This document shows, one piece after another, positions 16,945 through 57,400 of a stretch of 64,000 nucleotides of DNA (positions are counted from its first letter, which is position 1; each line of letters begins with the position of its first letter). Both the position numbers and the translations under genes were made by a program. Source of the DNA: Geobacter sp. DSM 9736. Lineage in GTDB: Bacteria > Desulfobacterota > Desulfuromonadia > Geobacterales > Geobacteraceae. The DNA is taken from NCBI RefSeq assembly GCF_900187405.1, contig NZ_LT896716.1, positions 3,658,753 through 3,722,752 of the forward strand. Reading direction: 5' to 3'. Under the pieces are notes generated by a model, which saw only the letters and a list, made by a program, of their open reading frames with translations, was not told the origin of the DNA and searched no databases.

Positions 16945-19900
16945 GTGAGCAGCTATTTTAGGAGGATGGCGGCATTAGCGCAGGTCGGATTGTTGGCCTT
17001 GTGTCTAGTTGTCGCAATTTCAGGTGCAGCACAGGCCGCGCAGTACAGCATGACCTGTGCCTCTTGTCACGGGATGCCCCCGCTGGACGACACCACCCGA
17101 AATATCGGTACGGGTGCATTCCAAGGGAATCACCAGACTCACCAGCCGGCAGTTGCTACTGCTACTGATTGCGCGATGTGCCACAACGTCACAGGATTCC
17201 ACAATGGGCACATGGATGGGCGGATCAATTTACAGCCGAATGTAAATAATTCTCCGGCTACGGCTCAATACAGAGTAGGTGGGGCGGCTGTTGCATTCAA
17301 GAACCAGACATCTGTGCCTGTTCTTGGTTCCTGTTCCAATGCAAACTGCCATTTCGAGAGACAAACTCCTGTCTGGGGCAGCCCGAAACTGGGCGCACGC
17401 TCAGAAGCCGTCTGTTCCACTTGTCACGATGCAGTTCCGACCACGGATGCTCATGCAAAGCACACTGCATTCATTGCCTCCAAAAACTCAGTCCCTGCGG
17501 CAGATACCTGTAATTCCTGTCACGTAACCAATTATGGTGATGCAGCGCATGCCTTCGAGGTTGGGCGGGCTATCAAGGTGCAACTCGCTTCTGGAAAGTA
17601 TAGCACCGCCACCAAGGCGAGCTACCTGCCATCCCAGCAGTCTTCAAGGGTCGCTGGTGATTGTAGCAACCTTTACTGCCACAGTAACGGTGCAGGAAGC
17701 TTCACCAAGCCGAACTGGGGAACTCCGGCATCTGGAGCCTGCGGAACATGTCATGCTAATCCTCCGGTGACGTCGACCCACCAGACCTTCGGCGCAGCAG
17801 CAAATAACTGCTCGACCTGTCACATCGACACGGACGCAGCCCACGTAAATACAAAAATCGATAAATCGGCACGGCTGACCAGCGCGCCGCACTTCAATAA
17901 CGTTACCACCGGCTCATACCCGGCATCGTACATCACCTCGAGATCTGCCTGTGCGGACTGCCACAACACCACGGCCGGCAATCAAACGATTCGTCAGCAG
18001 TGGGCCGGCTCAGGCCATGGCACCACTACCGCTTCACCCTGGGTTTCTTCTGACTTCAAGACGCGCTCAGGCTGCGTACAGTGTCACACCACCACAGGCT
18101 TCGTAGCCTTCTCTTCGGCCAAGAAGACCTCCGCATGGGGTGTTGCTTCCGACAAGACGAAGGAAACCATCACTTGCCGTGCCTGCCACAGCGACGAGGC
18201 CACAGGTGCTGTGCGGATGGTTACTCCGGCTAAGACGTTCAGCAGCTATACTGCGTTCCGCAATGCCGACATGCGTACCTCCAATATCTGCGCCGACTGC
18301 CACAGCGGCAGGGATGCAGCCAACCGCAGAGTTGCCGTAATGACAAACTTCAGTACGGCTATGAGCTATGGCGCACATTATCTGCCCGCAGCGGGTACGG
18401 TACAGGGGATAACCGGCTACGCATTCCCCGGCCGCAGCTACACTCTTGCAGACAACAGCCACAGCAAGGCCGGGACGCTCAATGCCAACAACACCGGCAC
18501 TGACGGCCCCTGCGTTACCTGCCATATGACCGCTACCGATAAGCACACGTTCGGTGCTGTCACTACTGATGCCGGGGGTGCAATCACCGGTATCAAGACC
18601 ACCATCTGTACGAACTGCCACAGCAGTTCGCTTCCTGCAGCAACGCTCGATGCCAAGCGTGTAGCATTCAACAACGCCATGGATGTCCTTAAGGCAGCCT
18701 TTGCCGACAAGGGGATCATCTGGAACAGCACATCAAAGACCTTCAACACCACTACCGGTGGAACTGTCATCAAGTGGGGACTTAAAACCGGCAACGAGGC
18801 AGCTAGAAACAAGTACGGCGCGGCTTACAACTATCGTCTGTTCTATGCCGACCCCGCTGCCTACACCCACAACCCGGCGTATGCGCGTCAGTTGATAATT
18901 GATTCTATCGACGCAGCATATAATAACGGGATTGTTACCGGCGACATTACCGCAGCGCTTGCCGACCTGGTAAACAGAGGCAAGATCACACAGGTCCAGG
19001 CCGACAGCGTCGTGGCCTACAAGAGCCCGACGGCCAGCTGTAACGGCTGTCACGGAAATCCGCCGGCCACCACAACCCACACCGCGTTCGGCACTGCAGC
19101 AAATACCTGCTCGACCTGCCACGTATTCACCGGCGTGAACGGCGAGACGCACCTCAACGGCACGGTCAACAAGACGGCACTGCTTACGAGCGCACCGCAC
19201 TTCAACAACCTGACGGGAGCGAAGTTCCCGGCCTCGTACATCACCACCCAGTCTACCTGCGCTGACTGCCACAACACCACTGCAAACAACAAGACGATCC
19301 GTCAGCAGTGGGCCGGTTCCAGCCACGGGGATACCACGGGGCTGGCCTGGATCAACTATGACTTCAAAACCAGGGCCGGCTGCGTACAGTGTCACACCAC
19401 CACCGGTTTCGTAACCTTCTCGACTGCACGTAAGACCAGTGCCTGGGGCGTTGCTTCTGACAAGTCGAAAGAAACCCTTACCTGTCGTGGCTGCCACAGC
19501 GACGTAGCCTCGGGTGCGGTACGCAACGTCACCCGCTCGAATCCTTTCGACGTAGAAACCACCTACCAGAACGTCGAAATGTCCACGTCGAACATCTGTT
19601 CCAACTGCCACAGCGGCCGGAACAACGGCGTATCTATTCAGTCCAAGGTCGGGACCTCCGACTTCACCAACCTGGCCTTTATTTCGCCGCACTACCTGTC
19701 GGCTGCAGGTTCGGTACAGGGCAAAACTGCTTTCCACTTCCCCGGCCGCACCTACACTGGCTTTGCGGACAACGCTCACGGCAAGGTCGGCATGGGTAAC
19801 GCCAACGGTACCGGCACCACCGGCCCCTGCGTCGCCTGTCACATGACCAGTGGGGAGAAGCACACGTTCGAGCCGATATCTACCGCCTCCAACGGTGCGA

Positions 19901-22197
19901 TCACCAAGATCACCAGCACCTCATGTACCAAGTGTCACAACACATCGCTGCCGGCTGTCACGCTGGACACGAAGCGAGTTGACTTCAACAGCGCCCTCAA
20001 CGTCCTCAGGGCGGCCCTTGCAGCACGTACACCTGCCATCATCGTCACCGATGCCTACCCGTATGTCAGCAACAGGAACTGGGGCACGGGTCAGGCTGGT
20101 GCGAACCTGATGGGTGCAACCTTCAACCTCAAACTTTTCATTACCGAACCGGGCGCTTATGCCCATAACCCGGCGTATGCGAAGCAGATCATCGCAGACT
20201 CCATCGAAGCAGCAGTAACGGGGGGCACCGTAACAGGCGACCTCAATACCGCCCTGGCCACCCTGGTAACGCGTGGCACTATCACGCAGCCCCAGGCTGA
20301 CAGCGTTCTCGGTTACAGGGATCCCGAAGGCTCCTGTGCAACCTGTCACGGAAATCCGCCGGCCACCACAACCCACACCGCGTTCGGCACTGCAGCAAAT
20401 ACCTGCTCGACCTGCCACGTATTCACCGGCGTGAACGGCGAGACGCACCTCAACGGCACGGTCAACAAGACGGCACTGCTTACGAGCGCACCGCACTTCA
20501 ACAACCTGACGGGAGCGAAGTTCCCGGCCTCGTACATCACCACCCAGTCTACCTGCGCTGACTGCCACAACACCACTGCAAACAACAAGACGATCCGTCA
20601 GCAGTGGGCCGGTTCCAGCCACGGGGATACCACGGGGCTGGCCTGGATCAACTATGACTTCAAAACCAGGGCCGGCTGCGTACAGTGTCACACCACCACC
20701 GGTTTCGTAACCTTCTCGACTGCACGTAAGACCAGTGCCTGGGGCGTTGCTTCTGACAAGTCGAAAGAAACCCTTACCTGTCGTGGCTGCCACAGCGACG
20801 TAGCCTCGGGTGCGGTACGCAACGTCACCCGCTCGAATCCTTTCGACGTAGAAACCACCTACCAGAACGTCGAAATGTCCACGTCGAACATCTGTTCCAA
20901 CTGCCACAGCGGCCGGAACAACGGCGTATCTATTCAGTCCAAGGTCGGGACCTCCGACTTCACCAACCTGGCCTTTATTTCGCCGCACTACCTGTCGGCT
21001 GCAGGTTCGGTACAGGGCAAAACTGCTTTCCACTTCCCCGGCCGCACCTACACTGGCTTTGCGGACAACGCTCACGGCAAGGTCGGCATGGGTAACGCCA
21101 ACGGTACCGGCACCACCGGCCCCTGCGTCGCCTGTCACATGACCAGTGGGGAGAAGCACACGTTCGAGCCGATATCTACCGCCTCCAACGGTGCGATCAC
21201 CAAGATCACCAGCACCTCATGTACCAAGTGTCACAACACATCGCTGCCGGCTGTCACGCTGGACACGAAGCGAGTTGACTTCAACAGCGCCCTCAACGTC
21301 CTCAGGGCGGCCCTTGCAGCACGTACACCTGCCATCATCGTCACCGATGCCTACCCGTATGTCAGCAACAGGAACTGGGGCACGGGTCAGGCTGGTGCGA
21401 ACCTGATGGGTGCAACCTTCAACCTCAAACTGTTCATTACCGAACCGGGCGCTTATGCCCATAACCCGGCGTATGCGAAGCAGATCATCGCAGACTCCAT
21501 CGAAGCAGCAGTAATGGACGGCACCGTAACGGGCGACCTCAACACCGCCCTGGCTACCCTGGTAACGCGTGGCACTATCACACAGGCCCAGGCTGACAGC
21601 GTTCTCGGTTACAAGAATCCCGAAGGCTCCTGTACAACTTGCCACGGCAATCCGCCAAATAACGATACGCATCTTGGTATCGTGGCGGGGACATGCGCAA
21701 GCTGCCATGAGTACACCGGGGTAAACGGTGCAACTCACAATAACGGCACCGTAGACATGAATGCCACCGGCGGCAGCTGTGATGCTTGCCATGGTTACCC
21801 GCCTGCACCGCGTAAAATCGCAGAGGGACAGACTCTTGTATTCGGTAAGCAGGGTCAGTGGTCAAGCGCACGCTTCGAGGATTACTCGGGCGGTGGTGGT
21901 GCTCACCTCGTAGCAGCTCATATCAATCCAGGCGTCAAGCCTTCGGATGGCTGGGCACCGTGCCTCACCTGCCACGTAGACGGCTCTGCGGCACATGCCA
22001 GAACGTTGCCGGTCAAATACAACGTGAGCAACGTGACGGTCAAGATGAAGCAGAATTACAAGAAGTTCAACGTCAGCCAGTTCATTACCTACAGTGGCGC
22101 GAAGTTGAGCAATCCGCCGCTGCGTAACACAACAGGCAGCTGTTACAACTCCAGCTGTCACTTCAAGCAGTCTCCGCAGTGGAGTATAGAGAGGTAG
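16945..22197 (+). CDS. Giant secreted multiheme c-type cytochrome, 35 heme motifs, internal tandem duplication
   Basis: 1,750 residues from a GTG at 16945. AGGAGGAG at 16931 sets this start, and a typical signal peptide (AALAQVGLLALCLVVAISGAAQA) follows; the frame is open further upstream but that part is not protein-like. I count 32 CxxCH and 3 CX4CH motifs. Structure: N-terminal module shared with the 23- and 12-heme neighbours, three tandem 8-heme units of about 430 residues (the first diverged, the second and third nearly identical at DNA level), then a C-terminal cap shared with the 27-heme protein (FEDYSGGGGAH, NVSNVTVK, CYNSSCHFK). No membrane anchor is visible. Inferred role: extracellular electron conduit or filament-like wire. 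Confidence 0.9.
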   Translation: MSSYFRRMAALAQVGLLALCLVVAISGAAQAAQYSMTCASCHGMPPLDDTTRNIGTGAFQGNHQTHQPAVATATDCAMCHNVTGFHNGHMDGRINLQPNVNNSPATAQYRVGGAAVAFKNQTSVPVLGSCSNANCHFERQTPVWGSPKLGARSEAVCSTCHDAVPTTDAHAKHTAFIASKNSVPAADTCNSCHVTNYGDAAHAFEVGRAIKVQLASGKYSTATKASYLPSQQSSRVAGDCSNLYCHSNGAGSFTKPNWGTPASGACGTCHANPPVTSTHQTFGAAANNCSTCHIDTDAAHVNTKIDKSARLTSAPHFNNVTTGSYPASYITSRSACADCHNTTAGNQTIRQQWAGSGHGTTTASPWVSSDFKTRSGCVQCHTTTGFVAFSSAKKTSAWGVASDKTKETITCRACHSDEATGAVRMVTPAKTFSSYTAFRNADMRTSNICADCHSGRDAANRRVAVMTNFSTAMSYGAHYLPAAGTVQGITGYAFPGRSYTLADNSHSKAGTLNANNTGTDGPCVTCHMTATDKHTFGAVTTDAGGAITGIKTTICTNCHSSSLPAATLDAKRVAFNNAMDVLKAAFADKGIIWNSTSKTFNTTTGGTVIKWGLKTGNEAARNKYGAAYNYRLFYADPAAYTHNPAYARQLIIDSIDAAYNNGIVTGDITAALADLVNRGKITQVQADSVVAYKSPTASCNGCHGNPPATTTHTAFGTAANTCSTCHVFTGVNGETHLNGTVNKTALLTSAPHFNNLTGAKFPASYITTQSTCADCHNTTANNKTIRQQWAGSSHGDTTGLAWINYDFKTRAGCVQCHTTTGFVTFSTARKTSAWGVASDKSKETLTCRGCHSDVASGAVRNVTRSNPFDVETTYQNVEMSTSNICSNCHSGRNNGVSIQSKVGTSDFTNLAFISPHYLSAAGSVQGKTAFHFPGRTYTGFADNAHGKVGMGNANGTGTTGPCVACHMTSGEKHTFEPISTASNGAITKITSTSCTKCHNTSLPAVTLDTKRVDFNSALNVLRAALAARTPAIIVTDAYPYVSNRNWGTGQAGANLMGATFNLKLFITEPGAYAHNPAYAKQIIADSIEAAVTGGTVTGDLNTALATLVTRGTITQPQADSVLGYRDPEGSCATCHGNPPATTTHTAFGTAANTCSTCHVFTGVNGETHLNGTVNKTALLTSAPHFNNLTGAKFPASYITTQSTCADCHNTTANNKTIRQQWAGSSHGDTTGLAWINYDFKTRAGCVQCHTTTGFVTFSTARKTSAWGVASDKSKETLTCRGCHSDVASGAVRNVTRSNPFDVETTYQNVEMSTSNICSNCHSGRNNGVSIQSKVGTSDFTNLAFISPHYLSAAGSVQGKTAFHFPGRTYTGFADNAHGKVGMGNANGTGTTGPCVACHMTSGEKHTFEPISTASNGAITKITSTSCTKCHNTSLPAVTLDTKRVDFNSALNVLRAALAARTPAIIVTDAYPYVSNRNWGTGQAGANLMGATFNLKLFITEPGAYAHNPAYAKQIIADSIEAAVMDGTVTGDLNTALATLVTRGTITQAQADSVLGYKNPEGSCTTCHGNPPNNDTHLGIVAGTCASCHEYTGVNGATHNNGTVDMNATGGSCDACHGYPPAPRKIAEGQTLVFGKQGQWSSARFEDYSGGGGAHLVAAHINPGVKPSDGWAPCLTCHVDGSAAHARTLPVKYNVSNVTVKMKQNYKKFNVSQFITYSGAKLSNPPLRNTTGSCYNSSCHFKQSPQWSIER
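19047..20218 (+). repeat. Tandem repeat unit B inside the 35-heme cytochrome gene
   Basis: This 1,172-base stretch is matched at +1,296 bases (20343-21514). By eye the copies are identical except one T/G difference at 20136 versus 21432. The period is 432 codons and in frame, and each unit carries eight heme motifs. Outside this block the two units diverge modestly. Confidence 0.93.
20343..21514 (+). repeat. Tandem repeat unit C inside the 35-heme cytochrome gene
   Basis: Second copy of the block at 19047-20218. Near-identity including silent positions points to a recent duplication or ongoing gene conversion. Unit A, upstream at roughly 17750-19040, has the same heme order but is clearly diverged in sequence. 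Confidence 0.93.
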
Positions 22198-30346: not shown

Positions 30347-30415
30347 AACGCGCATTATCAGCATGGATTGCAGCTCGCGCACACATTCAGTGCTGCTCAT
30401 ATTCGTAAGGTTCAC

Positions 30416-31564
30416 ATGATCGACAACAATCAACCGGCCTACACAGAACAGGAAAAAGATTCCGAAACCTATCCCGTCCAGCCCCGATATCACCCTATCC
30501 ATAAAATACCCCGCGTGATATATGATTTTCTGGCTTCCGCAAGGCTTGCTATGGCCTTGCTCCTGGTTATCCTCTCCTGCAGCGTCGCCGGGGTGACTAT
30601 CTGGCGGGGAGAGACGGCATGGCAGCTTATCTTCAGCACCGTCTGGTTCAATTCGATTCTGGTCCTGCTGGTTGTAAATGTCGCCTGCTGTTTTTTCGGG
30701 AGGATCTGGGGGCGGCGGATCACCATAGTGTCCTTTGGGATGATCCTCTTTCATCTGAGCTTCGTTGCCATGTTTGCCGGCATAGTCTATAACAGCCTGT
30801 TTTTCTTCGACGGCATTTTGCGGCTGACCGAAGGGGAGACTCTGCGCAATGGGGACCCACAGAGTTATGACACGATCCGTTACGGGCGCTTCTTTTCATT
30901 TTCGAAACTCAAGGGAGAGACCACCCTCATCAAGATGTACAAGGGGTACAGGGTAGGGGATGAGGACAAAAGGGTAGCTTATGAAGTCGCTGTAGGGGAA
31001 GGGGCTTCGAAAAAGCAGCAGGTTATCTATGTTACAAAGAATCTATCTTTTAACGGGATAAAGTTTTTTCCTGAAAAGGAGGGGTATTCGCCTCTCGTTC
31101 TGCTTGCCGACGGAAGAGGCAGAGAAATTTATGGAGCATACATCCCGCTCCAGAGCCTCAGGCAGGCGGATGACTCCTATTTCTACACCACCGGAACCAA
31201 GGACGGGCCCGGTGCGTTCCTCTATCCGCAGGAGCCGCTGGGAAAGCCGCTTTTCGATTTGCAGGTGACATATCTGCCTTCGAAGCTGGACGACCGTGGA
31301 GGAGAGGTCACCCTCAGCATATGGCCCATTGACGGATCACAATCTGGAGGGAAGCCTATTGGGGGGGGGAGAATACCAATTAATTCGAGCCTGGAAGCCG
31401 CCGGGCACAAATTCATGTTTAAAGAGCTGCGTTACTGGGTCGGCATGAAGGTGCGTTACGATCCGGGAAAGCCGTTTGTGCTGACGAGTCTCTGGATAGG
31501 ACTCGCCGGGATGCTCATTACCACTGTCGGGCGCATGATGCGAAGCGGGGCGCGTAAAGCCTGA
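30416..31564 (+). CDS. resB: ResB-family cytochrome c biogenesis protein
   Basis: 382 residues from ATG 30416, which follows GTAAGG; an upstream in-frame start at 30368 has no clear ribosome site. In system-II maturation ResB (CcsB/Ccs1) works with CcsA to deliver heme to CxxCH motifs on the outer face of the membrane. Features: a cytoplasmic N-terminus, hydrophobic helices at about 45-65, 80-100 and 112-135, a large extracytoplasmic domain (LRLTEGETLRNGDPQSYDTIRYG to LEAAGHKFMFKELRYWVGMKV) and a final helix (SLWIGLAGMLITTVGRMM). It is followed by its natural partner ccsA. The pair is probably devoted to the cytochromes encoded just upstream. Confidence 0.88.
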   Translation: MIDNNQPAYTEQEKDSETYPVQPRYHPIHKIPRVIYDFLASARLAMALLLVILSCSVAGVTIWRGETAWQLIFSTVWFNSILVLLVVNVACCFFGRIWGRRITIVSFGMILFHLSFVAMFAGIVYNSLFFFDGILRLTEGETLRNGDPQSYDTIRYGRFFSFSKLKGETTLIKMYKGYRVGDEDKRVAYEVAVGEGASKKQQVIYVTKNLSFNGIKFFPEKEGYSPLVLLADGRGREIYGAYIPLQSLRQADDSYFYTTGTKDGPGAFLYPQEPLGKPLFDLQVTYLPSKLDDRGGEVTLSIWPIDGSQSGGKPIGGGRIPINSSLEAAGHKFMFKELRYWVGMKVRYDPGKPFVLTSLWIGLAGMLITTVGRMMRSGARKA

Positions 31565-31640
31565 GCGGCTTTTTCAGTTCAGCCCTGTTTGAAACGCATA
31601 ATGCGCATGCAGCGCTGCCATTCCATTATAAGGAGCCTCT

Positions 31641-32465
31641 ATGAAACCCGAATTCATGTTCTTTTGGACTGCTGTCGCACTCTATGGCGTCAGCGCGTTC
31701 AGCTACATCTTCGGCATGATGGCGAAGCAGGACAAGCTGTTCAAGATCGGCCTCTTCAGCGCGTTGGCCGGTTTCATCCCGCATACTGTTGCCATTGGCC
31801 TTCGTTGGGCAGCGACGAGCATCAGTCCTTTCATTGCAACGTCGGAATCGCTTTCTCTCGGTGTCTTCATGGCGGTGCTGATATTCCTTGCTCTTGAGTT
31901 CAGCCCCCGCAAAGTTATGCCGATGGGGGTGCTGGTTATGCCGATATCGTTCGTTCTCATGGGATGGGCAGGAACGCTGATGGAGGAGGTTGCAAGCACT
32001 ATCGCTCCGGCGCTGCAGAGCGGCTGGATCTGGGCCCACATAGTCGGAGCATCTGCCGGTTTCGGCGCAGTTCTCGCGGCGGCAGGACTCGGATTGATGT
32101 ACCTCCTCAAGGAAAAGAACTCCGGAGGCATGTATGCAAAGCTGCCGGATTTAAAGGCGATGGATGAGCTATCCTACAGATTCGTTGCAGGGGGCTTCAT
32201 CATGTATGGCCTCATGATGGTTTCAGGGTGTTTCTGGGCTAACCAGGTGAAAGGGAACTACTGGAACTGGGATCCGGTCGAAGTATGGTCTCTCGTTTCA
32301 TGGCTCACCTACGGAATCTACCTCCACTTGCGCGTCACCTTCGGCTGGCGTGGTAAAAGGCTCGCCTGGTACGCGCTTCTCGCTCTGGTAGCGATGATCG
32401 TCAGCTACTGGGGCATACCTTTCACAGTGGAAACTTTCCACTCGGGATTCCGCATCGAACATTAA
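31641..32465 (+). CDS. ccsA: CcsA-family heme exporter / cytochrome c synthase component
   Basis: 274 residues, highly hydrophobic with about eight membrane helices. It carries the tryptophan-rich heme-handling motif of the family, GNYWNWDPVEVWSLVSW. Candidate axial histidines are in PHTVAIGLRW, AHIVGASAG and the C-terminal TFHSGF region. CcsA moves heme across the membrane and, with ResB, attaches it to apocytochromes. Start ATG 31641 lies behind AAGGAG. The gap to resB is 76 bases on the same strand, so one operon is likely. Confidence 0.92.
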   Translation: MKPEFMFFWTAVALYGVSAFSYIFGMMAKQDKLFKIGLFSALAGFIPHTVAIGLRWAATSISPFIATSESLSLGVFMAVLIFLALEFSPRKVMPMGVLVMPISFVLMGWAGTLMEEVASTIAPALQSGWIWAHIVGASAGFGAVLAAAGLGLMYLLKEKNSGGMYAKLPDLKAMDELSYRFVAGGFIMYGLMMVSGCFWANQVKGNYWNWDPVEVWSLVSWLTYGIYLHLRVTFGWRGKRLAWYALLALVAMIVSYWGIPFTVETFHSGFRIEH

Positions 32466-36639: not shown

Positions 36640-36697
36640 CGTGCATGAACCTTTTCTATCAGGAGCTGCGTGCATGAACCTTTTCTATCAGGAGCTG
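36640..36697 (+). repeat. Perfect 29-bp tandem duplication covering a ribosome binding site
   Basis: Two exact head-to-tail copies, 36640-36668 and 36669-36697, each containing GTGCATGAACC, TTTTCTATCA and GGAGCTG. The second copy supplies the GGAG used by the radical SAM gene that starts at 36700. The first copy is an untranslated duplicate. Confidence 0.95.
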
Positions 36698-54431: not shown

Positions 54432-57400
54432 CTACTTGGTAATTGCAAGCCATGTGGCTTTTACCGTTCCACCATCCAGCATGACCTGAATCTGGTACGT
54501 TCCCCTCTCCAACAGACTCGTGTTGAGGTTATAGATATAGATTCCATCGGAAATACGGAAGTAGTTGCCAGTATCAGCTCCGCTTGTGGAAGTTACCTCG
54601 ATTGGGTCTCCGACCGGCTCGCTGCCGGCATACTTCTGCAGAAGGAACTTTGCTGTTGCAGAAGTCACGGGATTGCCGCCTGCGTCGGTAAGCTGAAATT
54701 TGACCGGTACGGTGGAGCCGGCTTTAAAAGGTTTGCCCAGATTTACCGGCGGCAAAAACCCTGCGAAGACGTAGTCCACCCAGATCGTTGCCGAGGCTGA
54801 AGTGCTGTTGCCGAAATCATCGGTCGAGGTGAACGTGACTATTTTCGGCCCCACTGCAGTCAAATCGGGAACGGTGTAGGTGACTGTCGTGTCGGAATCG
54901 ACATTGTCAGTTGCGGACGCTGCCCCCAGAAACGCCTGGACTACAGGCGCACTGACCGGTGTATTCAATGGTACCCAGATCGCCGCGGGAACATTCAGTA
55001 CAGGAGGAGTGGTGTCCTGAACCTTGATGCTAAAGCTTCCCGTTGCGCTGTTCCCACTGCCATCACTCGCCTTGCAGGTAACTGTAGTTGTTCCGATCGC
55101 GAAGACACTGCCTGATGCCGGTGTGCAGGTAACATGAGGATTTTCTGTTACCAGATCCCGTGCAGTGACGTTGAAAGCCACAATGGCGCCGCTAGCGGAT
55201 GTTGCTTCTACTACTCGACCGTCAAGACCTGCAAGTACCGGAGGTGTGGTGTCTGTTACGGATACGGTTTGAGTTGCGGTTCCCCTGTTTCCCGCCGCGT
55301 CAGTGGCGGTCCAAAGGACGGTGGTCGTGCCGATGGGGAATTCTCCCGGAGCGTTGCTGGTGAGGGACGTAACACCTACGGCATCAGCGGCAGTTGCCGT
55401 GCCAATGGCGACAGTGGTTTGCGGACCTGTTGCTTCAACGTTCAGATTCGTAGGCGGGATAACGACTGGTGCAGTACTGTCTGTCACAGTCACGGTCTGA
55501 GTCGCAGTTCCCCTGTTCCCCGCCGCGTCAGTGGCGGTCCAAAGGACGGTGGTCGTGCCGATGGGGAATTCTGCCGGAGCGTTGCTGGTGAGGGACGTAA
55601 CCCCTACGGCATCAGCGGCAGTCGCCGAGCCAATATCGACAGTGGTCTGCGGCCCTGTTGCTTCAACGTTCACATTCGTCGGCGGAATAACGACTGGCGC
55701 AGTACTGTCTGTCACAGTCACGGTCTGAGTCGCAGTTCCCTCGTTTCCTGCCGCGTCTGTGGCGGTCCAGATGATGGTTGTAGTCCCTAGGGGGAAAGTC
55801 GAGGGAGCGTTGTTGGTAAGAGACACAACGCCGACGGCATCGGCTGCGGTTGCCGTGCCGATTGCAACTGCGGTCTGCGGATCTGCTGCCTCGACAGTCA
55901 CATTGGCCGGGGGTGTGACTGCCGGAGCGGTGGTGTCCACGACGGTAACGCTGCTCGTCACCGAGGTGGAGCCGCCCGCGAAGTCGAACGCTGTCGCTGT
56001 GACAACGGTCGTGCCCATCGGGTAGACCGAGAGCGATGGAGTCACCACCATCCTGTCGAGTCCGCAGACATCGGTTGCCGTGACAGGGAGGCTGTAGGGC
56101 GCACCAGTCGGCCCTGTTGCTTCGATTGTCACGGCCGGATCAGCGATAACAGTCGGGGAGACGGTGTCTGAGATCGAAACCGTGACAGAGGCGGTGTCTG
56201 TTGCTTTGCCGTCGCTTACGGTAAGGGTTATTGCATGTATTCCTCTGGCCAACATAGTCAATACGGGGCTACCGGTTGCTGTTCCGAAAGGTCCACTCCA
56301 GCTGTAAGAAAGGGTGTCGCCGTCGGGGTCTAACGATCCTGATCCGTCAAGGGTTACCGCAGTCAGAGGGCCGCTGCACTCGTATGTCTGGGACACTCCC
56401 GGATTAGCTTGTGGGGGGGCGTTGCGGTAGCTCGTTCCCGAAACAGCAATTGTTGTTGTTCGCCCAAGTGCGTCGGTTGCCACCGCCTTGACGACGACCG
56501 TCGCCCCTTCCGGAAGATCGGTAACGCCGAACGCGGAGGTGAAGGGAGCGCTCGAGTCTTCGCCGAGGAAGAGAGAGCCGCCCGCTGATTCGCGGAAGAA
56601 ACTCACACGCGCGGGCGCATGGTTCGGATCAACGGATATTTCCACGGGAATTCCTGTTCCTGAAAAGACCCCCGCCGGAAGCGGCTTAAGGAAGGAGACG
56701 GGGGGGCCGAGGTTGTCGACGGCCCCGGTGCTGGTCTTTTCTACGGTTCTTCCGTCGGCGAAGGTGGCGACGACCTTGAGGGTGATGGTGCCATTGGCAA
56801 ACTGGGTTGAGTCAAATGATGATTCGAATACTCCTCCGGCATTCGGCGTGTCATCGCTGCCGACTTCTACTCCATTGACGTAGAAACCCATTTTCGTAGT
56901 CTGTGCGATGCGGTCGGTCGTGGCCTGAAATAGGACGGAAGATCCGGAAACGGTTCCCGTAGGCTGGAGAATGGTGACTGCTGCGAGATTCCCGAGAGCC
57001 CGATCGAGATCTGACCGGTCGAGGATATAGGCATAGGTGACCGACTTCGACTGCCCAGGAGCGAGGTCGCCAAGGTCGAAGGCCAGGACGATTGCCTGAT
57101 CGTATACGACCGGCGCCGACGGCGTCGGCTGCGCCGGGTTGTCGAGGATACGGTCGATGTCGCGGTTTGAGAACCCTTGCGTGGCGACAACGGCCCGAGG
57201 ATCGATGGCGCCGAGGCCGAGGGTAAAGCCGTACCGCAGCCCCTGTGCGAGGACGAGCGCACTGCTCGTGTTACCGTCAGGGCGGGCAGGGAGGCCGGAT
57301 TTGCCCGGAACACCGCTGCGCGGTGGCTGAGCCTCGACCCAGTTGCGCGTCGTAAAGTCCCCGTAGGGAAGTTCCACTTCCTGGTCCGGATCCACGTTTC

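Follow-up and report, generated by a model that had tools for sequence, protein, structure and literature searches.

Modular c7 cytochromes such as GSU1996 are built as one chain of repeated triheme c7 modules. Duplication of multihaem cytochromes at the level of whole genes is already known (PMC2825233, PMC5585712). Multihaem cytochromes of metal-reducing bacteria were reported to change fast in a 2026 rate study (PMC12977616), and its main text mentions neither tandem repeats nor recombination nor gene conversion by these words. Intragenic homogenisation, in the form of concerted evolution, is described for the aciniform silk genes of spiders (PMC3933166). In our literature search, which covered few subscription papers, we did not find homogenised modules described for any multihaem cytochrome, and it is this feature that would be new in the locus presented here, per the literature searched.

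The window, i.e. the whole stretch of DNA that was analysed, comprises 64,000 nt of Geobacter sp. DSM 9736 and contains, on the forward strand, a gene for a giant multihaem c-type cytochrome with 32 CxxCH and 3 CxxxxCH motifs (16945..22197). The open reading frame as listed begins at TTG 16759 and stops at 22197. The probable start codon is GTG 16945, which gives 1750 codons, because AGGAGG precedes it by 8 nt and the residues encoded after it resemble a Sec signal peptide, both read from the sequence. The predicted signal peptide suggests that the protein is secreted; there is no evident lipobox in the sequence. The 35 haem motifs are distributed as six in the N-terminal part, eight in each of the units A, B and C, and five in the tail. 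The N-terminal region (17056..17739; 4 CxxCH, 2 CxxxxCH; PF09698) is followed by unit A (17740..19038; 433 codons), unit B (19039..20334; 432 codons) and unit C (20335..21630; 432 codons), all with 8 CxxCH motifs, and the tail (21631..22197) opens like a fourth unit and diverges after that. Three more multihaem reading frames (1071, 924 and 1279 codons when measured between stop codons) are found around this gene, and there are cytochrome biogenesis-like genes at 30368-32465, where the CcsB-type match, at 163.7 bits, falls short of the cut-off (187.6). The window also holds a 228-nt tandem array with a period divisible by three (55250-55904; 2.9 copies, 85% matches) and a perfect 29-nt tandem doublet (36640-36697).

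Over 24 aligned units, six CxxCH motifs (C80, C121, C155, C193, C270 and C302, as numbered in the first row) and several lone histidines are invariant, haems 1 and 2 being less constant. The catalytic haem of NrfA is lysine-ligated and has a CxxCK motif. Unit B matches PF14522 and PF02335 above their cut-offs; the latter, the NrfA family, gives 33.5 bits against a cut-off of 24.1 in a partial match (270-414 of 438). Unit B, however, has CxxCH in all eight of its motifs and no CxxCK, so an NrfA-type catalytic haem was rejected and we make no claim of an enzyme. The whole protein matches PF22113 (MtrC/MtrF domain II/IV) with 127.4 bits, above the 30-bit cut-off and with the best stretch at unit A; PF22113 is not among the matches for unit B alone. 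Membership in the OmcA/MtrC family of decahaem cytochromes (TIGR03507) was rejected as well, as 49.7 bits falls below the whole-protein cut-off of 209.3. When the 24-row unit profile was compared with structures, partial and weak matches were obtained to MtrF (E 2e-8) and to NrfA chains (best E 5e-6), and a phmmer search of the PDB with unit B gave no match up to E 0.1. The AlphaFold2 models were too poor for fold comparison or for judging filament assembly of the OmcS nanowire type, with a mean pLDDT of 39.6 for unit B (5 rows) and 38.2 for B+C (3 rows).

The same genome encodes a 502-aa cytochrome with a lipobox-like start that aligns with most of the unit at 36% identity. It adjoins a 230-aa protein with 8 CxxCH motifs and a 412-aa barrel-like protein for which no family matches were found. 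In porin-cytochrome conduits, a surface cytochrome with a lipoprotein signal is typically accompanied by an adjacent porin and a periplasmic cytochrome, and it is from this layout that we read the gene group as a putative conduit. If this reading is correct, the giant protein would represent several surface-cytochrome modules on one chain, and, judging from this homology and from the signal peptide, the array would most likely serve extracellular electron transfer. A separate observation is that another locus (L113:2739-9460) carries two neighbouring sets of a barrel-like protein, an 8-CxxCH protein and a single-unit cytochrome, apparently a doubled conduit.

Position-by-position comparison at an offset of 1296 nt showed that 19047..20218 and 20343..21514 agree over 1172 nt with the sole exception of position 20136, where CTT and CTG, both coding for Leu, make a synonymous mismatch. 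The period of 1296 nt equals 432 codons, in frame, with 8 CxxCH motifs per unit. An earlier note on this DNA had claimed a near-identical in-frame duplication preceded by a diverged related unit; its coordinates, length, period and single difference were all right, and unit A is indeed only 59.8% identical to unit B in protein (251/420). At fourfold sites, 73 of the 135 comparable ones differ between A and B, as opposed to 4/246 between B and C over the whole units. When the DNA of unit B was searched against the whole genome, the matches were units B and C themselves, two parts of unit A and a single 45-nt stretch at another place; a third near-identical copy was not found. The length of the block alone excludes chance. 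It may be argued that extreme constraint at the nucleotide level holds B and C alike without any exchange, since the region encodes conserved haem sites. However, about half of the fourfold sites in the same region differ, both between A and B and between the lineages compared below, which leaves this explanation with a negligible probability.

The surroundings of the block are quite different from the block itself. To the left of 19047 the sequences are strongly diverged, and on the right flank the B/C linker (20219..20342) shows 11/124 differences from the C/tail linker (21515..21638) and 51/124 when compared with the A/B linker. Of the 11 differences from the C/tail linker, 7 alter the encoded residue, and the other 4, in unit codons 398, 402, 406 and 415, are synonymous. 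The differences are thus unevenly distributed, i.e. 1/1172 in the unit body versus 11/124 in the linker (Fisher p 4e-11, for a tract that was picked after the fact). If the unit had been copied just once, similarity should be even over the whole 1296 nt, so one duplication is hardly enough to explain this pattern. Either the bodies were equalised again after the linkers had diverged, or a diverged allele took part in the crossover.

The start of unit C contains a chimeric junction (20335..20360), tail-type on the left and unit-B-type on the right: the stretch before unit C resembles the stretch before the tail (GAAGGCTCC TGT.CAAC) until the codons of haem 1, and from there on it is the start of unit B. 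The switch lies within the haem-1 CxxCH codons, and the word common to both sides consists of the CxxCH-GNPP codons. The chimeric junction and the linker differences together form the trace that would be expected if the beginning of unit B had recombined with that of the tail, and growth by one whole unit is supported by this junction. The unevenness of the differences suggests, in addition, that the bodies of units B and C were probably homogenised after the duplication. A simpler history, in which unit B was recently duplicated in tandem only once without later conversion, and the linkers changed fast under selection or came from a diverged crossover allele, would agree with the coincidence of the block's left edge with the proposed crossover point and with the residue changes caused by 7 of the 11 linker differences. 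But it has to account for the difference between body and linker, for the 4 synonymous linker changes and for an independent identical pair with diverged edges in a second genome, and we regard it as unlikely.

This second genome (G062) is a metagenome-assembled genome labelled Geobacteraceae Cfx3-08, which is placed in another family of the order. Its homologue, hereafter L001, is the sole full-length relative found; it has 1349 codons with 24 CxxCH and 3 CxxxxCH motifs and contains two units, which show 0 differences over 1173 nt at a period of 1350. Although the bodies are identical, the unit edges have diverged, with 11/22 differences on the right and 77/158 on the left, the latter figure being ungapped and inflated by an indel. 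Both units belong to type A, with 69.3% identity to unit A and 51.9% to unit B, and the unit tree groups them with unit A, and unit B with unit C, both groups at 100/100. The junction words keep their position across the two genes (TASCNGCHG at the second unit, NPE.SCT.CHGNPP at the tail). The neighbourhoods of the two genes are unrelated: when the L001 stretch was compared with the window at E 1e-15, nothing else matched except antisense frames of the same gene.

The alignment of units across species that the earlier note had proposed showed that units within a gene are closer to each other than to the corresponding units of the other lineage, in identity (98.4% for B-C and 94.9% for the two L001 units, versus 51.6-69.3% between genes) as well as in the tree; moreover, the near-identical tracts are sharp-edged and the unit edges diverged, as is typical of concerted evolution. 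At fourfold sites, the two L001 units differ at 11/215 over the whole units, and the lineages differ at 51-53%. As about half of these sites differ between the lineages and only few within each gene, the near-identity must have arisen separately in each, and two lineages with separate recent homogenisation at one locus point to intragenic concerted evolution. It should be added that this history rests on two full-length genes, from different families and unrelated neighbourhoods, and that the G062 assembly is in about 130 contigs, so that the copies of an exact 1.17-kb repeat may have been counted wrongly in it.

Short-read data are known to be prone to error at exact repeats longer than 1 kb, and it might be suspected that one unit was doubled, or two diverged units falsely homogenised, by the assembly. 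Yet the genome is a closed single contig of 3,957,683 bp, the B/C linker is unlike both other linkers, while a copied stretch would not differ, and a tract of this kind, though with other edges, is present in a second genome that was assembled separately. An artefact of this kind is, in our opinion, very improbable; the worry expressed in the earlier note is lessened, although some risk stays. The same note had offered growth by whole 8-haem units or gene conversion as alternatives. Both parts held up, growth through the chimeric B/C junction and the two-unit homologue, homogenisation through the uneven differences and the independent identical pair in L001, but the alternative itself did not, and "and" is the better reading.

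Homologues of the N-terminal part are widespread, matching in 63/141 genomes of the order at E 1e-20; the best match outside this genome is the 66% identical region in L001, and others among the matches listed reach at most 54%. Unit A, at E 1e-50, matches in 31/277 genomes of the class and in 3/395 sampled genomes of the phylum, both counts including this genome. Adjacent units at least 59% identical to the query occurred, among the matches listed in the class search, only in this genome (G000) and in G062, and the same search found a genome (G004) that carries two units at 42% and 35%. An internal repeat of at least 150 nt was found in 19/134 distinct cytochrome reading frames, and only 2 of these reach 95%, namely the giant cytochrome and its L001 homologue; the sample was drawn from 125 records, many chosen by likeness to the giant cytochrome or by length, and some incomplete. 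Homogenisation as a general rule for cytochrome arrays was rejected, because a 7-unit array from another genus, compared between two genomes (G040 and G017b), matches best by position in 7/7 units; deeper paralogues in this comparison mix. The survey and the positional array together indicate that, within the sample, strong homogenisation is special to this locus.

Other arrays came to light in the course of this work. The 37-CxxCH proteins of G040 and G017 (L119, L120, L121) contain seven tandem units of ~230 codons, and in G017a, units 3 and 5 share 92% protein identity, a hint of exchange between non-neighbours. Within a 979-aa reading frame (L125, G102), 264 nt are repeated with 94.7% identity and an exact core of 95 nt, possibly another recent exchange, and in a 2445-aa frame of L121, which has 9 CxxCH motifs, 2194 nt are repeated with 81% identity. 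The present genome encodes two further giant cytochromes with tandem units, of 360 codons at 79% DNA identity in a 2535-aa frame (L109) and of 445 codons at 74% in that of a 2086-aa gene (L106). Chains of c7 domains occur in it at two different lengths, with nine consecutive domains in a 723-aa frame with 27 CxxCH (L110; G000:C1:524244-526250), and four in a 351-aa frame with 12 CxxCH (L111; 1193317-1194222).

On balance, we think it likely that the giant cytochrome consists of tandem 8-haem modules of surface type, the third of which was added by recombination, that B and C were later homogenised, and that the locus evolves in a concerted manner. The third module was probably added by a crossover between the start of unit B and that of the tail, within the conserved haem-1 CxxCH-GNPP codons. 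The homogenisation over ~1.17 kb would have followed via gene conversion or another unequal exchange, as the uneven differences suggest, and the same process appears to have acted separately in L001, whose bodies are identical and unit edges distinct. There may also have been an older exchange between units A and B: in columns 19-168, unit A resembles B more than L001 at 33/45 informative protein sites, compared with 23/120 outside (permutation p 0.003), but as saturation of the fourfold sites is no lower in columns 41-160 (21/40) than elsewhere, this is suggestive only. One may speculate further that the array is alive and variable in length, recombination at CxxCH-GNPP adding and removing modules and conversion keeping them interchangeable, so that populations would vary in haem counts and reach; we offer this as a tentative and rather doubtful idea.

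The locus would provide a concrete route to fast change, in which whole haem modules are added in frame and then homogenised. Genes with two or three units form a natural series in which an influence of module number on electron transfer could be looked for; the number of units might, as the earlier note proposed, set the length of the electron path. Caution is advisable when units are counted in short-read assemblies and when rates are estimated for genes of this type.

A comparison with known systems shows both similarities and differences. MtrC/MtrF and NrfA have haem numbers unlike that of the unit, and the profile likeness is partial and weak. GSU1996 also carries repeated haem modules on one chain, but these are triheme c7 modules as opposed to 8-haem units of surface-cytochrome type. 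Borg multihaem cytochromes share recent tandem repeats in genes for extracellular multihaem cytochromes (PMC9879509); however, those repeats are mostly disordered and cysteine-poor and never disrupt functional domains, whereas here a whole haem domain is repeated. The omcB/omcC genes of the related bacterium Geobacter sulfurreducens are a near-identical tandem duplication of outer-surface cytochrome genes, but there whole gene clusters were doubled and not units within one reading frame (PMC5585712, PMC2825233). The aciniform silk genes resemble the present case in their long tandem protein units, with >98% nucleotide identity within the gene and more divergent terminal regions (PMC3933166). 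The difference is that silk is a eukaryotic structural protein whose repeats vary little between species too, while the giant cytochrome is a haem protein of bacteria, has two or three units, and shows strong divergence of these from one lineage to the other.
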